A stretch of DNA of 64,000 nt from Actinomycetes bacterium (GCA_021828475.1 JAJZIY010000008.1:1-64000), one strand, 5' to 3'; positions 56,194-63,539 are shown, counted from the stretch's first letter. Notes: generated by a model from the letters alone, not told the origin. Numbers and translations are program-made.

Positions 56194-56265
56194 GCCCTCG
56201 TAGCTCAGGGGATAGAGCACCGGCCTCCGGAGCCGGGGGCGCAGGTTCGAATCCTGCCGGGGGCA
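56194..56265 (+). tRNA. tRNA-Arg (anticodon CCG)
   Basis: A full cloverleaf can be drawn. The acceptor is GCCCTCG with CGGGGGC (one G-U), the D stem GCTC/GAGC, the anticodon stem CCGGC/GCCGG with loop CTCCGGA (anticodon CCG at 56227-56229), and the T stem GCAGG/CCTGC with loop TTCGAAT. The discriminator base is A and CCA is not encoded. Its 3' end is a common attachment site for integrative elements, and element remnants follow directly. Confidence 0.97.
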
Positions 56266-56548
56266 CGCAACGCAACGCGACCAACCAGTCCTCCCCACTT
56301 CTCGGTGCGGCGGACTGGGTAGTCTCGCTGCCGAGATCGTAGAGGGTGGCTGCGACATCGATGGCGCTGTCGGCCGGCTGGTAGACGACGTCGAGCTGTA
56401 GCGAGTCGAACAGCGCCCGCAGTTCGCCCTGTGGCGCTGCGTCGAGCGAGCTGGCGAAGATCGGCAAGCGGTCCAGTAACGGGGCGACGTCGGCCGACGT
56501 GGGCGCCTCTCTCGCCGAGACGCCGTGCGCTGCGGCCGGGCTTGGCAC
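56266..56548 (-). pseudogene. C-terminal remnant of a large serine recombinase
   Basis: About 94 codons whose centre reads DVAPLLDRLPIFASSLDAAP...LRALFDSLQLDVVYQPADSAIDVAATL. This is the pattern seen at the far C-terminus of actinobacterial large serine recombinases, a helix-rich segment followed by an LFDAF.L.V.Y strand pair. No catalytic Ser domain, recombinase domain or zinc ribbon remains. The frame runs on into the antisense of the tRNA and would stop there, which fits an element inserted at the tRNA 3' end with the recombinase gene reading toward it. The upstream part was probably removed by the deletion that joined it to the next fragment near 56550. Confidence 0.55.
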
Positions 56549-56549
56549 A

Positions 56550-57482
56550 GGAGAGCCCGTAGCGGACGGCGACCTCGAAGGCGGGGAGGTCGCTCGCCTT
56601 GTGGACCGCGTGACGCATGTCGGCCGTCCCCATCTGGTCAGGGACCGGAGGCCGCGCGGGGGTACTCCGCCAGGCGGCGAGCACCCGGGGGATGAGTGCG
56701 GTAGGCCGGCCGGTCTGAAGTAACCGGGCGGCTCGGATGAGCATGCGGGTGGAGCGGGAACCGGCGGGGCGGACGAGGACCTGGACCAGTCCCTGCTCGT
56801 CGCCTCCCCAGGAGCCGAGTGCGCCGATCACGGTGCGAAGCGGATCGACGACATGGTCGGTGCCGAGTGGGAGCCAGGCCGGTGCCGCGAGCCGCAGCTC
56901 ACCGCAGGAGGTGAGCCGACCGGCGAGGTTCGGGCGGTGGGCGTCGCGGACCTGGCACTGTGCGCCCGGCCAAGCCGAGGAGACGGCCTGGGCGACGGCG
57001 TGCGCCGAGATGCCCGCGGACACCCAGAGCCGCAGACCGATGCCTTCACCGGACCCCTCCATCTCGAAGACGACGTGGCCGGTGGGACGAAGCAGGTGGC
57101 GCTTGGCGGCCAGCACCGGGTGGAGGTTCCGCCAGAAGGCGAGCGCACCCTTCGCCTCGACGACAGCCGGCATCGCCACCTCGACGAGCTGGCCAACGGT
57201 CGGTGGCCGGAGACGGCCAAGCACTCGAATGACCACCCAGGCGGCCATCAGCCCCAGAACGGCGATCACCACCGGCACGGCGATGGGCAGGACCTGGTTG
57301 GCGAAGTGGGCGAGATGGTGGCCGGGTCTTTCCACCAGGCGTCGGGGTGGGCGAGGAAGTGGGCGAGCGGGCCGTGGGGCAGGCTCGGGGACGGTGCGGG
57401 GGCAGTCGGTGGCAATGGGATCCTCCTGTGATCGATGGCTGTCTGCGGGAGGACCCGACCGAAACCGAAAACCTCCACACAT
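56550..57482 (-). pseudogene. N-terminal fragment of a conjugation-type (HerA/TraG-like) membrane protein
   Basis: The frame encodes a membrane span (QVLPIAVPVVIAVLGLMAAWVVIRVLG) and then a soluble domain with ALAFWRNLHPVLA, HVVFEMEGSGEGIGLRLWV, AVSSAWPGAQC, GELRLAAPAWLPLGTDHVVDPLR and FEVAVRYGL. This is how actinobacterial ICE proteins of the HerA/type IV secretion ATPase group begin, but the sequence degenerates after FEVAVRYG and no Walker motifs follow. The start is uncertain: GTG at 57482 has no ribosome binding site, whereas an ATT at 57416 follows a perfect AGGAGG at 5-6 bases. Function lost or altered. Confidence 0.6.
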
Positions 57483-57573
57483 AAGAACAGGGGGGTCCTC
57501 GCGCGAACACCGGGAAGGCGTCCGGAGTCGAGACAGAACAAGCTGCTACGCTGGGAGAACGAAAAGCGCCTAT

Positions 57574-57936
57574 TTGTCGAGGTCTGGGGCTGCGGACGAG
57601 TTCGAGCAGGAGGGTCGCGCCATCGAGGCGACCCTCGCTCGGGGCCAGGCCGCCCGACTCGCACCGCATAGGGCCGCGCTCATCGAGTCGCTCACCGCCA
57701 TGCGCAGCGACGCCGAACTGGCGCTCCACCAGGCGATCTACGAGGCGAACCCGGACGGCTGCTCATGGCGGCTGCTCGCCAAGTTCACCGACATGTCCTG
57801 GCAGACCCTGCACCGCCGCTACCGGGGGCGACCGACCAGGATGCGACCGCCGCCCGACAAGGACACCTGGCTTCGCAGCCGACGGCAGGGCGGAAGGGTC
57901 GTCACATCGTCGTTCGACGAGAACTGGTGGTCGTGA
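57574..57936 (+). CDS. Small helix-rich protein, possible HTH DNA-binding protein
   Basis: About 120 residues, helical and charged, with an Ala/Arg-rich first half (DEFEQEGRAIEATLARGQAARL...) and a segment GCSWRLLAKFTDMSWQTLHRRYRG that resembles a helix-turn-helix followed by a basic stretch. No family recognised. The start is a weak guess: TTG at 57574 is the first possible start in this stretch; ATG at 57700 would leave only the second half. It is divergent from the conjugation-like fragment, as small regulators in integrative elements often are. Confidence 0.5.
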   Translation: MSRSGAADEFEQEGRAIEATLARGQAARLAPHRAALIESLTAMRSDAELALHQAIYEANPDGCSWRLLAKFTDMSWQTLHRRYRGRPTRMRPPPDKDTWLRSRRQGGRVVTSSFDENWWS

Positions 57937-58187
57937 CGCGCGCTGCCGGCGGGGACTCGATGGCCAGAGGCCGCCTCTTGTCGGCTCCTGGGCCCCAGCC
58001 GGATCGGTAGGTCCCGCGCCGGTCCCGTCCGGCGAGGTAGAACCTATCCGTGCCCCAGCAAGCTCCGCCGAGACTGTCACACCGCCTCACTACCCTGCCC
58101 TCGTGTCCCTTTCGGACGGTCCAGCGCACCTTGGTCACCATCTCGGACCTCCCGCTCCGCACTAACGCGAGATAGGAAGACCGTGCA

Positions 58188-59432
58188 ATGGTCGCGACTC
58201 AAGCTGCCCTATTCGAAATGCAGAAGCTCATCGAGCCGTCCACGGCCCGCCTTGGGGTATTCGACGACAACCGGTCCAAGGCAATCCACCGCTGGTACCC
58301 CTTTATCGAGGGATACAGCGCCGACCTTGTCGAAGCGGCCCTAATCGACGTCGGCGGCAAAGACGTCCACGTGCTCGACCCATTCGGTGGGTCGGGTACG
58401 ACTGCCCTGACGGCGTCCGCCCTGGGCTTCGACTGCTCATTCTGTGAGGTCAACCCGTACCTAGCGTGGGTAGCGGAGGTCAAAGTCAACGTCGCCCGGG
58501 CTGCCGCCGAAAGCCCCGATCTCGGGCTGCTGGGTGATCTCGCCGCTGTCTTGGACGCGGGCGGCAAATTCGGGGCACCGCCCGGAGACCATCCCTTGCT
58601 CGATGTTGATGCTCACCGACACTTCTTCCCGCGCGGCGTGGCCAGTCGCATCCTTGGACTTCTGGCGTGGATCGACGCCAACCTGACGGCCCCACTGGAC
58701 GACTTAGCGCGATTGGCCGTGACCACGTCTCTCATTCCCGCGAGCAACATGGTGCGCCGTACCGATTTGCGCAAGCGGCACACAGGCGATGCCCCACCAG
58801 CTCATCTGGAATCGACCGTTGCATCGCAGCTGCGGATGATCCAAGCAGACGTCATTGAAGCCGCCCCGAAGTTGGGAGGCTGTGCCGTGCGGGTTGCCGC
58901 TGACGCCCGCACGCTGACGCCACAGCCCCATCCCTTTACGACCATCGTTACCTCGCCCCCGTACCTAAACGGAACCAACTATTGCCGCAACACCAAACTG
59001 GAGCTTTTTTCGCTTGGCCTGCTTGAGGAGGCCGAGTTGGCGGAGCTGCGAGTGAGATCCATCACAGCTGGCATCAACAACGTGTCCAAGCGGCGCGCTG
59101 CACCAACGCTGACCGACGACGTCGAACAGGTCGCACAGCAGCTGGATTCAGTGGCTTATGATAGGCGTATTCCAGCCCTGGTGCGCCTGTACTTCTCCGA
59201 TATGCAGGTAGTGTTCGAGCGCGTGCGATCGGCGTCGGCTCTCGGCGCTGCGTGGCTGCTGGACATCGGCGACAGCCGCTTTGCTGGTGTCAGCGTTCCG
59301 ACGCCCGAACTTCTTGTATCGGTCGCATCGTCCGTTGGCTGGCGACTCGAAACCACTCGGACGTTACGAGAGCGGAAGTCGTATGATGGCACGCCGCTCA
59401 CGCAGGTGCTGCTCTCGCTGAGGGCGGCCTAG
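58188..59432 (+). CDS. DNA methyltransferase 1 (N4-cytosine/N6-adenine type)
   Basis: SAM-dependent amino-methyltransferase of 414 residues. Motif I is VLDPFGGSGTT (64-72 core) and the catalytic motif IV is TSPPYLNGTNY (255-259 core), separated by about 190 residues that should hold target recognition. SPPY is commoner in N4-cytosine enzymes than in N6-adenine ones, but this does not decide. The ATG has AGGAAG 8 bases upstream. The sequence is clearly less GC-biased than the chromosome, with runs such as TTTTTT, a sign of transfer. One base separates its stop from the second methyltransferase. Confidence 0.88.
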   Translation: MVATQAALFEMQKLIEPSTARLGVFDDNRSKAIHRWYPFIEGYSADLVEAALIDVGGKDVHVLDPFGGSGTTALTASALGFDCSFCEVNPYLAWVAEVKVNVARAAAESPDLGLLGDLAAVLDAGGKFGAPPGDHPLLDVDAHRHFFPRGVASRILGLLAWIDANLTAPLDDLARLAVTTSLIPASNMVRRTDLRKRHTGDAPPAHLESTVASQLRMIQADVIEAAPKLGGCAVRVAADARTLTPQPHPFTTIVTSPPYLNGTNYCRNTKLELFSLGLLEEAELAELRVRSITAGINNVSKRRAAPTLTDDVEQVAQQLDSVAYDRRIPALVRLYFSDMQVVFERVRSASALGAAWLLDIGDSRFAGVSVPTPELLVSVASSVGWRLETTRTLRERKSYDGTPLTQVLLSLRAA

Positions 59433-59433
59433 G

Positions 59434-60609
59434 ATGCAATTGCACTTGCTCGCCGATGGCATCGGCCCTCGACCGACCGGTGATCTAGTCAGCCGCGCCG
59501 AAGCATTCTGCGTGGAGGCTCCATACCGGCAGCCTCCCTTCAATATGCGCAATTGGGGTGGTCCCCTGCATTCACTCTGTTCTTACCAGGGGAAGCTGAA
59601 GCCCAGCATCGCCGCGTTCCTCGTCTCCTGGTTTAGCGAGCCGGGCGACCGTGTGCTCGACCCGATGTCGGGTGTCGGAAGCGTACCACTCGAAGCCCGA
59701 CGGCAGGGCCGGGTCGGTATCGGCAACGACCTGAGTCCACTTGCTGCGACCGTCTCGGCGGCGAAGCTTGTACCATTCGATACGGATGATGTTGATGACG
59801 TGCTCGGGCGACTGACGAAGCGGCTCGACGAAGATACCCCGCTAAGCGTCTTAGAACGGAGCGTCGATGTCGACTTCGGGCTGAATGGGCCGATACACTC
59901 GTACTTTCACCCTGAGACGCTGCGAGAAGTCCTGGTAGCCCGCCACTTCTTTCTTACCGAGCCATCTAACGGTGCAGCGCATGACGTTGTGCGCTCAAAC
60001 GTGTTGCACATCCTGCACGGTAACCGTCCTTACGCGCTGTCGCGACGGTCGCATCCGGTTACTCCGCTCGCTCCAACGGGGGAGTTCGAGTACCGATCGC
60101 TGACACGACAACTCAAAGCTCGCATTCATCGCATCTTGCCGGAACTGCTGGCACTCATAAGCCAACCTGACGGCCAGGCCTATCAGCAGGACTTCCGTAC
60201 ACTGGAGCTGGAATCACCGGTCGACGCGATCTTGACGTCGCCGCCATTCGCCAAGTCGCTCCGCTTCTGGTCCATGAACTGGATGCGGCTTTGGTTCGCC
60301 GGTTGGGACCCAATCGACTTTCAGACTGAGCCGAAGCGCTACCTCGAAACCGAGCAGATGACCAGCTTCGACGCTTACTCCGACTTCGCGCGCTCATCCG
60401 CCCGACTGTTGAAAGACGGTGGCATCCTCGTGATGCACCTCGGCGAAACTGCCACACTGAACATGGTTGACCACATCCGTCCGCATCTCGCTCCCTTGTT
60501 TGACATTGCGTTTACTGGTCGAGAGTGCGTCTTGGATACTGAGTCCCACGGGCTTAGTGACAAGGGTGCAACCACCGCTCACTGGTACCTGTTCGCCCAG
60601 AAGTGCTAA
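59434..60609 (+). CDS. DNA methyltransferase 2 (SPPF type)
   Basis: A second SAM-dependent DNA amino-methyltransferase, 391 residues. It starts with a conserved SLCSYQGKLKPSIAAFLV motif, has motif I as VLDPMSGVGS (76-83 core) and motif IV as LTSPPFAKSLRF (268-272 core). It is not a copy of the first enzyme; identity is confined to these motifs. Coupled start (TAGGATG). Paired methyltransferases often serve restriction systems with asymmetric sites, one per strand. Its stop overlaps the stop of the convergent endonuclease gene. Confidence 0.87.
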   Translation: MQLHLLADGIGPRPTGDLVSRAEAFCVEAPYRQPPFNMRNWGGPLHSLCSYQGKLKPSIAAFLVSWFSEPGDRVLDPMSGVGSVPLEARRQGRVGIGNDLSPLAATVSAAKLVPFDTDDVDDVLGRLTKRLDEDTPLSVLERSVDVDFGLNGPIHSYFHPETLREVLVARHFFLTEPSNGAAHDVVRSNVLHILHGNRPYALSRRSHPVTPLAPTGEFEYRSLTRQLKARIHRILPELLALISQPDGQAYQQDFRTLELESPVDAILTSPPFAKSLRFWSMNWMRLWFAGWDPIDFQTEPKRYLETEQMTSFDAYSDFARSSARLLKDGGILVMHLGETATLNMVDHIRPHLAPLFDIAFTGRECVLDTESHGLSDKGATTAHWYLFAQKC

Positions 60610-61988
60610 GTCAGCCGCTGCTGCCGCTCCTTTCCTAGGTCTATCGAAACGCCGTCCGGTAGCGCGCTCAGGGTCTTTTGCAGTGCCTTGACCAGCAAGT
60701 CGGCAGCTTGTTTGCCGTCTCGGACTCGCTGCAACTCGGGCTGCTGCAAGAACTCGTCGAAGAACCAACCAAGGCGGGCCCGTAACAAATTGATGGCTTC
60801 GATGTTTGGGCTGGGATCCCTGAGCTCGTCCAGCGTCAGCTTGGTGATAGCGGCCAACCGCCTCAGCTCGTCCTCCGTGTAGAACGCGACCGGTGGCCTA
60901 TCCCGCTTTTCGGAGTTGTGCGTACAGCACAGACAGGTTGCAGTTCCATCGAGAGGCCATAAGAGGGCCAGAGGTCGGGTGTGGTCCAGATGCATGTCGT
61001 TTGGGCTGGCGAGGGCCGTCCCGCATTTGAAGCATCGTCCACCGAAACGCGTCCAGACATCATCGGCCAGCTCGCGTCCCGTCTGCAGTCTATATATTAA
61101 CTGGGGCGATCCTTTGTATAGGTGGTCCAGCAGGAATTCAATCGCCCGACGACGGGCAGCATCTTCTTTCATCTGGGCTGCCGTTCGTTGCGGGTTCAAC
61201 GCAGCATTCACCGCGAACTTCTTGCAGAAACGGCATTCGAGCTGGAATCCATAGGTCAATTCCACCACTTCGCCGGTGCGCGCATCGCGGATGCGGCCGA
61301 AGCCGGTGTGGGAACACGGCAGTCTGTGCTGAGCCTTGCAGTGGTTGGAGAAGCTGAGGTGTGCTCGCTCGTCGTCAATGTTCACGGGCAGGTAGCGTCC
61401 ACAGCGATTACAGGACTTCAAAGAGATCATCGCTGCACGATGTACCACTGCCAACCCTTCATCGCCGACCCGGACGATGCCCTGTCCGTCGGGAGGATAG
61501 AAGTTGGCTTCGGGTGCAAAACGCCACATATTGGGCAGCAGAGCGGGGCGAGCATCGTCGAGATACTCATGCTCGACTCGCCCGCAAAGCATGTCGAAGG
61601 TGGCCACATGGGTCGGACCTTCTGCTCGGAAGATGAGGCGGATGGTGCCTTGACCGGCATCCGGTGCCAGCCACTGGCTGCCAACCTTGCCCCAGTTCGG
61701 CATTACCGCGTTCTGCAGCAGGACGCTCCGAGGAAGATCCCCCTCGAGGCTGATCGCGACATCGCCACCAGTCGTGAACCACCCTCCGAAGCCCAGTCGG
61801 TCACCAGGCTCGGACCCAGGGAAGCTGAACTCGTAGCGCAGCTCTTGGCCGTCCTTTAGGTAGTACCCATTGACCTCATCGAACTGCATCTCGACCGCAC
61901 TGCTGGCCGAGAATCCCGACCGACGGGTCATGGGCCTACGGCGGCCTGCCCACGTTGCCTTGCCTGGCAGCTTGTCGTCGCGTGGCAT
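60606..61988 (-). CDS. HNH endonuclease with N-terminal uncharacterised domain, probable restriction enzyme
   Basis: A 460-residue protein. Residues about 33-185 form a probable beta-rich domain (YYLKDGQELRYEFSFPG...RLGFGGWFTTGGDVAISLEG...) that I cannot assign. Residues 190-260 contain two zinc-knuckle-like clusters: Cys193/196 with His216, Cys217, His221 and Cys225, and Cys252/255. Residues 308-365 are a zinc-stabilised HNH nuclease: CFKCG (319-322), the catalytic LDHTRP (His336) and CLCCTHNSEKRD (352-362). The ATG at 61988 has GAAGGT upstream; the frame continues upstream only through chromosome-like Pro/Arg sequence. Convergence on two methyltransferases makes a restriction role likely. 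Confidence 0.78.
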   Translation of the reverse strand: MPRDDKLPGKATWAGRRRPMTRRSGFSASSAVEMQFDEVNGYYLKDGQELRYEFSFPGSEPGDRLGFGGWFTTGGDVAISLEGDLPRSVLLQNAVMPNWGKVGSQWLAPDAGQGTIRLIFRAEGPTHVATFDMLCGRVEHEYLDDARPALLPNMWRFAPEANFYPPDGQGIVRVGDEGLAVVHRAAMISLKSCNRCGRYLPVNIDDERAHLSFSNHCKAQHRLPCSHTGFGRIRDARTGEVVELTYGFQLECRFCKKFAVNAALNPQRTAAQMKEDAARRRAIEFLLDHLYKGSPQLIYRLQTGRELADDVWTRFGGRCFKCGTALASPNDMHLDHTRPLALLWPLDGTATCLCCTHNSEKRDRPPVAFYTEDELRRLAAITKLTLDELRDPSPNIEAINLLRARLGWFFDEFLQQPELQRVRDGKQAADLLVKALQKTLSALPDGVSIDLGKERQQRLT

Positions 61989-62197
61989 GCGGACCTTCGG
62001 CGGCTGGGCCAGGGGGACGCGACCGTCTGCCGCAAGCGATGCATCGCGCCGCTCGCTGCGACAGCGAGCACCACTACCGTAGGCGCGTCGGCGGCCGGCG
62101 TGCGTGACATGGCGCCTTCCAGACCCCGCTGCAGGCCGATGTGGCGCTTGCCAGGTCATTGGATCGTGGGTCCACAACCTGACGGGGGACCATGGCC

Positions 62198-63539
62198 TCA
62201 CGAGGTCCTCGCGTAGAACGTCGGCCGCCGCCGGTGGGTCTCCCGCAACGCCGTCAGGTGCGCGGCGAGCTCGCCCTGGCGGTCCGCCGCCTGCGCCGCC
62301 TGTGCCGCCTTCTTCAGGATCGCCACCGCTCGCACGTACGCCGCCTTTCCGGTCGTCTCGAGCTGGAGGTCGGCCAGGCGCAGGTAGACGTCGAGCGCGT
62401 CGCCGGGCGCAGACGCTTCTCGGGCCTCGGCCAAGCGCACCCACCGCTGCGGACCCGGATCCCAGCCGGGACGGGCTCCGGGGACCTGCCAGGCAGCCTC
62501 GGGCTCGCCGTCGGCAAGCAGCACATCGACCAGGCCACCAGGGTCGTGCTCCGCCAGCACCTCTCGGGCCGCCGGGCGCTCGGCCGGCCACACCCCACCG
62601 GCCTCGGCTGCGGAGCGCAGGAGGCCGTACGTCGACGACGAGGGCATCCGCTGGTGCTGATCGCGACGCAGCCGGAGCACCTCCTGGTCCTCTCCCCGGC
62701 GGGTGTGGGCCCCGGCGGCGAGGTCGTAGAGCTGGGCGACCTGCCAGCCGGCCGACTCGGCGATGCCGCGAGTGGCCCAGGACAGGACATCGTCGTCGCG
62801 GCCCAGCTCCGCCATGGCCTCGGTAACCCTGATGAACTGGTGCGGCCGGCTCAGGTCACCGCCCAGCAGCCCGACGAGGGCCTCCGCGTCGCCGTCGAGG
62901 ACGGCCAGACGCTCCTGGGCGTAGGTGGCGGCAAACGAGTCACCACCGCCTGCTTCGACGCGCTTGGTCACCTCGCGGCGGTACGCCGCGAGGCCGAGCT
63001 CGCCCAAGGCGCCGGCGTAGCGGACCGGGTCCACCTCGAAGAAGTCCTGGTCGTCGAAGCGGAACCGGACCATCCAGCGGGCCAGCTTGATCGGATCTGC
63101 GCTCCCAGCGTCGCACGCCCGGGCATGCAGGTCGAGCAGCTCACGCGCCAGGTCGCCGATCAGCCCGTCGGAGTCGTCCGCCTCGAGGATCACCTTCACG
63201 ACGTGGCCGATCGCCCGCTCGACCAGCAGCACCAGCTCGGCCGTTGGCGACGAGTCGACCGCCTCGCCGATCGCCTCCACGACGGGCCTCGCCTGCATCG
63301 CCCAGCCGCCGCTCTCCCGGTAGCCGAGGTACCGGTTCGTCCGCAGCCCGCGGTCGATCTCCGCCTTCAGCTGGGAGAGATCCCCCGGACCCCCGGGTTG
63401 CCGCCAGGCGGACCGCCCGAGCGACGTCCTCGTGGCGCTCGGCGGCCTTGCCGACGATCCCACGGAGGTCCTCGGCGTCGAACCTCGCGATAAGCACGTC
63501 TAGGTCGTCAGGGTCTGGTCGTGGCGCACGTGGACTCAT
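62198..63539 (-). pseudogene. SWIM-associated DUF6880-like gene with a frameshift
   Basis: Two frames together make one protein. From ATG 63539 the first frame reads DLDVLIARFDAEDLRGIVGKAAERHEDVARAVRLAA; near 63380-63395, in two runs of five cytosines (plus strand), the sequence must move one base to continue as GDLSQLKAEIDRGLRTNRYLGYRESGGWA and on to the stop at 62198. The total is 447 codons plus one base, so a single extra base explains it. The content (LLDLHARACDAGSADPIKLARWMVRF, ALGELGLAAYR) resembles the helical region that follows SWIM zinc fingers in actinobacteria. It may be a true pseudogene or a homopolymer sequencing error. Confidence 0.65.

Follow-up and report, generated by a model that had tools for sequence, protein, structure and literature searches.

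A predicted type II restriction-modification cassette with two amino-methyltransferases and a multi-zinc HNH nuclease in a tRNA-Arg island of an Actinomycetes genome

What kind of system is encoded by three adjacent genes, M1, M2 and R, on a 64,000-nucleotide stretch of an Actinomycetes bacterium (GCA_021828475.1 JAJZIY010000008.1:1-64000; the whole stretch is referred to below as the window)? An earlier note on this DNA had described a complete cassette in which two coupled methyltransferase genes run towards the gene of a 460-residue HNH nuclease and the stop codons overlap, and had put it forward as an undescribed system. The open reading frames (ORFs) and the stop overlap were confirmed, and the cassette is very probably an intact type II restriction-modification (R-M) system with a predicted asymmetric target (subtype IIA/IIS-like). 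Positions are given in the numbering of the whole stretch, and R residues are numbered on the 460-residue protein of the window. The cassette comprises:

58188..59432, plus strand: M1, S-adenosylmethionine-dependent DNA amino-methyltransferase, 414 residues (motifs, PADLOC/Pfam models).
59434..60609, plus strand: M2, second DNA amino-methyltransferase, 391 residues (motifs, PADLOC/Pfam models).
60606..61988, minus strand: R, predicted HNH (beta-beta-alpha-Me) restriction endonuclease, 460 residues, ATG at 61988 (motifs, homologue matches).

M2 starts 1 nt past the M1 stop codon, M2 and R are convergent, and two bases are common to their stop codons (TAA at 60607-60609 for M2, TAG at 60606-60608 for R). 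None of the three frames is interrupted or truncated, and every conserved motif is intact. The cassette consists of these three ORFs, two for methyltransferases and one for an HNH protein; family scans of it revealed neither an ATPase/helicase nor a specificity subunit.

Linkage and spread of the three genes

All three genes are present in each of the 28 distinct loci (window included) with an uncut R or M2 gene, a set that includes close relatives and is not a count of independent events. This recurrence is therefore not due to chance, and the absence of linkage that the earlier note had allowed for, when proposing to look for the same gene order in other genomes, was not borne out. Separate genes for a restriction endonuclease and its cognate methyltransferases, the arrangement expected of type II systems, are stably linked at every one of these loci. 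Scans seeded with R returned 17 genome loci, one plasmid and 7 viral contigs, and M1 and M2 lie beside R wherever the contig is uncut there (16/16 genome loci, 1/1 plasmid and 6/6 viral contigs). An M2-seeded viral scan found R in all nine of its loci, three of them new and divergent, and an M1-seeded scan found the three genes together in 10 of 13 loci, adding one locus (L073); the full triad was not present at the three distant loci of that scan (24-25% identity). No phage record contained R, two extra R matches in the phylum search proved to be generic HNH proteins, and two distant M2 relatives in the phylum (L095 and L096) were set aside, having other gene neighbourhoods without R. Around one of the latter (L096:635-9544), genes resembling those of TIR, caspase and HerA proteins were recognized by eye; this cluster is a separate candidate defence island.

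By host or record name, the carriers are Acidimicrobiia, Sanguibacter, Paraconexibacter, alpha- and gammaproteobacteria, Verrucomicrobia, Phycisphaerales and a metagenome-assembled genome of Euryarchaeota; the triad also occurs on prophages, a small plasmid and a recoded contig. Carriers available in culture include Paraconexibacter antarcticus, Litchfieldella xinjiangensis and Sanguibacter keddieii. No literature was found on plasmid pA39BP3. A 4.5-kb 'Bacillota' contig (L002) is, judging from its 64% identity, probably misbinned. The convergent gene order of the window is the rule, with three exceptions (L007, L013 and L014), and M1 is frameshifted in one locus (L044). Between loci, the pairwise distances measured for R, for M1 and for M2 are correlated (r 0.42-0.88, reached by 0 of 2000 permutations).

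The recoded contig, L073 (IMG/VR 3300031994_005358), carries the whole triad, with in-frame TGA codons in R (21), M1 (24) and M2 (20); in its R, glycine is the commonest homologue residue at 12 of the 20 scored positions. Since TGA must be read here as glycine (code 25), the triad is predicted to reach recoded lineages (Gracilibacteria/Absconditabacteria-type) or their phages. In phage-like contigs the triad was also seen directly behind lysis genes, either endolysin and other late genes (L004, L041) or a spanin-like gene (L046), which suggests a prophage defence slot.

Seven loci (L005, L009, L011, L012, L013, L019 and L042) have, just upstream of or overlapping R, a small C-protein-like helix-turn-helix gene (HTH_3 match, E 1.7e-14); type II systems with a C-protein gene placed before the nuclease are known (PMC2997769). 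A small ribbon-helix-helix-like gene, recognized by eye, precedes the methyltransferase gene in L010, L011, L042, L043 and L046 and may be a second regulator, at the other side from the C-protein gene.

The methyltransferases and the predicted target

In both methyltransferases motif I precedes motif IV (DPFGGSGTT then TSPPY in M1, DPMSGVGS then TSPPF in M2), and M2 contains in addition a near-invariant stretch, HGNRPYALSRxSHPxTP. Along its entire length M1 matches PADLOC MTase_II PDLC03389 (E 2.5e-75), weaker matches to several PADLOC type II methyltransferase models were obtained for M2, and the Pfam models found on the two are N6_N4_Mtase and UPF0020; Pfam and NCBIfam scans gave no match to a C5-methyltransferase model on either. 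The earlier note had called the two enzymes unlike, which holds for their distance from each other, although both belong to the same SPP(Y/F) class. SPP(Y/F) in motif IV favours N4-cytosine methylation, and since M1 and M2 both carry it, their product is probably N4-methylcytosine. A search for the specificity via named relatives led, among the PADLOC controls, only to Methanocaldococcus jannaschii (for M1), with none for PDLC03469.

Two conserved methyltransferase domains are present in every complete copy of the triad, which is in line with the proposal of the earlier note that two methyltransferases point to an asymmetric target; type IIA enzymes are often accompanied by one or two methyltransferases, each for one strand (PMC4081073). 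Alternatively, M1 and M2 might be redundant on one palindrome, or act on two different sites, within a type II system whose target is not asymmetric. It is general knowledge that some type II systems have two methyltransferases without an asymmetric site, and the predicted recognition regions of M1 and M2 differ. We nevertheless regard this as unlikely: both enzymes are kept in deeply diverged copies, often fused (M1-M2 is a single ORF in at least 11 loci, L003-L006, L010, L012, L041-L043, L046 and L047), as expected if each serves one strand, and the M1 and M2 distances correlate with r 0.88.

The nuclease, its domains and a model of action

The following parts of R were distinguished, all on the minus strand:

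61899..61988: residues 1-30, arginine-rich arm RRxxTRxSGF, with a low predicted local distance difference test score (pLDDT) (conservation, AlphaFold2).
61569..61898: residues 31-140, predicted beta-sandwich/jelly-roll resembling carbohydrate-binding modules (CBM-like), pLDDT about 90 (AlphaFold2, Foldseek).
61203..61421: residues 190-262, zinc-ribbon region (conserved cysteines).
60894..61076: residues 305-365, HNH domain with zinc knuckle (conserved motif).
60609..60893: residues 366-460, conserved C-terminal helical tail FYxxxELxxLxxITG... (conservation, AlphaFold2).

The three cysteine clusters reported in the earlier note are present and conserved, and so is an HNH motif (LDHTRPL...W..D..AT.LC...N..K). 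In an alignment of 29 homologues, on which the counts given here are based, the predicted catalytic residues D335-H336, N358 and K361 are invariant (29/29), as are C193, C196, C252 and C255 of the zinc ribbon (29/29), next to which H216, C217, C225 and H227 form an optional second metal site; R17 and R18 of the arginine-rich arm are kept in 28 of 29. The HNH knuckle consists of C319 (29/29), C322, C354 and C/H357, the last three being lost jointly in two loci (L062 and L063); at position 357 some homologues have Cys and others His, the pattern expected for a zinc site. R thereby has the catalytic His, metal-binding Asn/His and CxxC zinc knuckle of an HNH nuclease. The HNH part of several homologues gave weak matches to HNH_5, Endonuclease_7, HNH and PADLOC REase_II PDLC03469.

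The N-terminus of about 190 residues, which the earlier note had left unassigned, indeed has no sequence match in Pfam, NCBIfam, PADLOC or PDB. The AlphaFold2 model of R (17 sequences) has a mean pLDDT of 83. Foldseek paired residues 31-140 best with solved jelly rolls, among them CBM61, CBM16 and CBM6, at a probability of up to 1.0, a non-significant E of 0.04-0.09 and a TM to target of about 0.4-0.5. The full R model matched nothing at E <0.001 in Foldseek, the domain-only model returned the same CBM-like fold, and a viral fold library yielded just tail-fibre-like beta domains, which were uninformative. The resemblance to CBMs is thus a weak one of predicted fold, with homology not proven.

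This N-domain is the fastest-evolving part of R (mean pairwise identity 30% vs 57% for the remainder), and its distances correlate with those of the rest of R (r 0.86) better than with those of the methyltransferases (r 0.43-0.57). In L062 and L063 a CxxC zinc ribbon stands in place of the jelly roll, and a small protein of one archaeal locus (L014b) has no N-domain, so the jelly roll is a predicted exchangeable module upon a conserved zinc ribbon-HNH-tail core. These variants are themselves of note. The R proteins of L062 (6703-7686) and L063 (6138-7121) have 328 residues, with a zinc-ribbon N-domain, a lost HNH zinc site and M1/M2 still linked, and their genes adjoin apparent serine-recombinase genes. 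L014b (L014:1874-2728) is a second small HNH protein of 284 residues beside the archaeal copy, consists of the zinc ribbon-HNH-tail core and could be a second subunit or nicking partner.

The earlier note had also suggested that the N-domain may sense modification. On that basis R would be a modification-dependent (type IV-like) nuclease, its jelly roll sensing modified DNA, and would neighbour two methyltransferases by coincidence. An unassigned N-domain with a CBM-like fold would fit this, and SRA-HNH enzymes show that HNH nucleases can bear sensing domains (PMC6212794). Type IV enzymes, however, have no cognate methyltransferase, whereas the same two accompany R at every assessable locus, where a nuclease that cut DNA modified by its neighbours would kill its own host; a C-protein gene is a mark of type II systems; and the N-domain, the least conserved part of R, is absent or replaced in distant members that are still linked. 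We see no support for a sensing role and hold a type IV-like nuclease to be very improbable.

For the type II system that we prefer, we infer activity, methylation type, target asymmetry and domain roles from the computed gene content, linkage, motifs and island. M1 and M2 would each methylate one strand of one non-palindromic site, in which a C is expected on each strand because both enzymes likely make N4-methylcytosine, and R would cut incoming DNA wherever that site is unmethylated. Catalysis would be carried out by the HNH domain (D335-H336, N358, K361), the zinc sites being structural; essential DNA contacts would probably come from the arginine-rich arm and the zinc-ribbon/C-tail core, while the jelly roll would probably be an accessory module for recognition or oligomerisation. 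The M1-M2-R unit would spread by horizontal transfer. A far more speculative idea, which we consider a long shot, is that the CBM-like domain binds phage DNA decorated with sugars (glucosylated/arabinosylated), or some other feature outside the bases, which would let a methylation-controlled enzyme engage hypermodified phage genomes as well, the zinc-ribbon members having a different reach.

Several points weigh against a type II system of this kind. The window R has no significant profile match (Pfam, NCBIfam and PADLOC models and PDB sequences, also with a profile against PDB, gave no match of note), and its predicted HNH assignment comes from motif conservation and the weak matches of homologues. 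SPP(Y/F) does not strictly exclude N6-adenine as the methylated base. The distances of R correlate moderately with those of the methyltransferases, and because of this members may have exchanged partners or differ in specificity. Finally, a C-protein gene is missing from the window copy and likewise from L001 and L002, the two relatives closest to it.

The tRNA-Arg island and relation to known systems

As had been noted earlier, the block is less GC-rich than its flanks (59-62% in M1, M2 and R vs about 71-73% in adjacent genes) and lies in a decayed mobile element, an island common to relatives that begins at a synteny break right after a tRNA-Arg gene:

56194..56266, plus strand: tRNA-Arg (CCG), left end of the island, where same-genus synteny stops (genome comparison).
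56984..57827, unstranded: degenerate island sequence that borders the cargo slot on the left and is shared (68%) with G007, a genome of the same family (comparison).
57828..62215, unstranded: cargo slot holding M1-M2-R; in G007 it holds an hsdM remnant, IrrE/M78 and DUF4411 genes (comparison).
62198..63463, minus strand: DUF6880-like gene, right border of the slot, outside the R-M unit (Pfam, comparison).

A same-genus genome continues directly after the tRNA-Arg with sequence that corresponds to about 66.9 kb in the present numbering, so that about 10.6 kb is, judging from this comparison, inserted here or lost there. G007 (locus L052) has the tRNA-Arg and the left remnant (68%) in common with the window and a right flank of 92%, and G032 has an hsdM/IrrE neighbourhood next to the same right flank. 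The DUF6880-like gene is 88-92% identical in genomes from further genera and families within the order, G032 has several copies of it, and it is probably itself mobile. A search for a repeat of the tRNA 3' end that could serve as attR found none. R is present in one of 41 relatives (absent from 40), and the only full-length match among 296 phylum-sample genomes is in the window's own genome. The presence in 1/41 relatives, the lower GC and the synteny break show that the triad was acquired, probably by horizontal transfer, and it fills a defence-cargo slot of the decayed tRNA-Arg island.

Such a setting could also mean that the triad is a decaying passenger, its genes open by chance and its function gone: the surrounding element is degenerate, and the serine-recombinase fragments seen in G007 were not found in the window island. 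Three full-length frames with intact conserved motifs speak against this, and the triad was found in none of the same-genus and same-family genomes searched, which fits recent arrival over old decay. We consider loss of function distinctly unlikely and retain the intact type II system.

The claim that this is a new kind of system did not survive comparison with the literature. HpyAV/Hin4II (CCTTC 6/5) likewise combine an HNH nuclease with two methyltransferases, which HpyAV has in fused form and Hin4II as separate proteins, and they act on an asymmetric target, as predicted here (PMC2816704). Their C5-cytosine and N6-adenine methyltransferases set them apart, by description (PMC2816704), from the two SPP(Y/F) amino-methyltransferases here, and no mention of a jelly roll, as predicted for R, was found in the description of HpyAV. 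HpyAV resembles no known restriction endonuclease except its isoschizomer (PMC2816704), so having no homologues is nothing unusual for an enzyme of this sort. PacI, Hpy99I and KpnI (type IIP) are also HNH/beta-beta-alpha-Me nucleases, and structural Cys4 zinc sites, possibly more than one per subunit, are known in HNH restriction enzymes (PMC4081073); these three differ in their palindromic or pseudo-palindromic targets, and the R profile matches no PDB chain. SRA-HNH enzymes (TagI) share the combination of a non-catalytic recognition domain with an HNH nuclease domain, but are modification-dependent and have an SRA fold, in contrast to the predicted jelly roll and ever-present methyltransferase pair here. 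The PADLOC families MTase_II PDLC03389 and REase_II PDLC03469 resemble M1 over its whole length and some R homologues weakly over the HNH domain, whereas the window R matches no PADLOC model. The layout of an HNH nuclease with two methyltransferases is already known; the nuclease family and its architecture appear undescribed in the Pfam, NCBIfam, PADLOC and PDB resources searched, and the predicted jelly-roll architecture is the unusual part of the system.

The window and G007 show that defence cargo has been exchanged within a single tRNA-Arg island. With a jelly roll in most members and a zinc ribbon in its place in distant ones, the family offers a way to test where in an HNH restriction enzyme the DNA is read. 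If active, the triad would represent a compact, widely transferred type II family whose nuclease lies outside the searched Pfam, NCBIfam and PADLOC endonuclease models, and may yield a new cutting specificity together with a pair of probable N4-methylcytosine methyltransferases usable as protecting enzymes.

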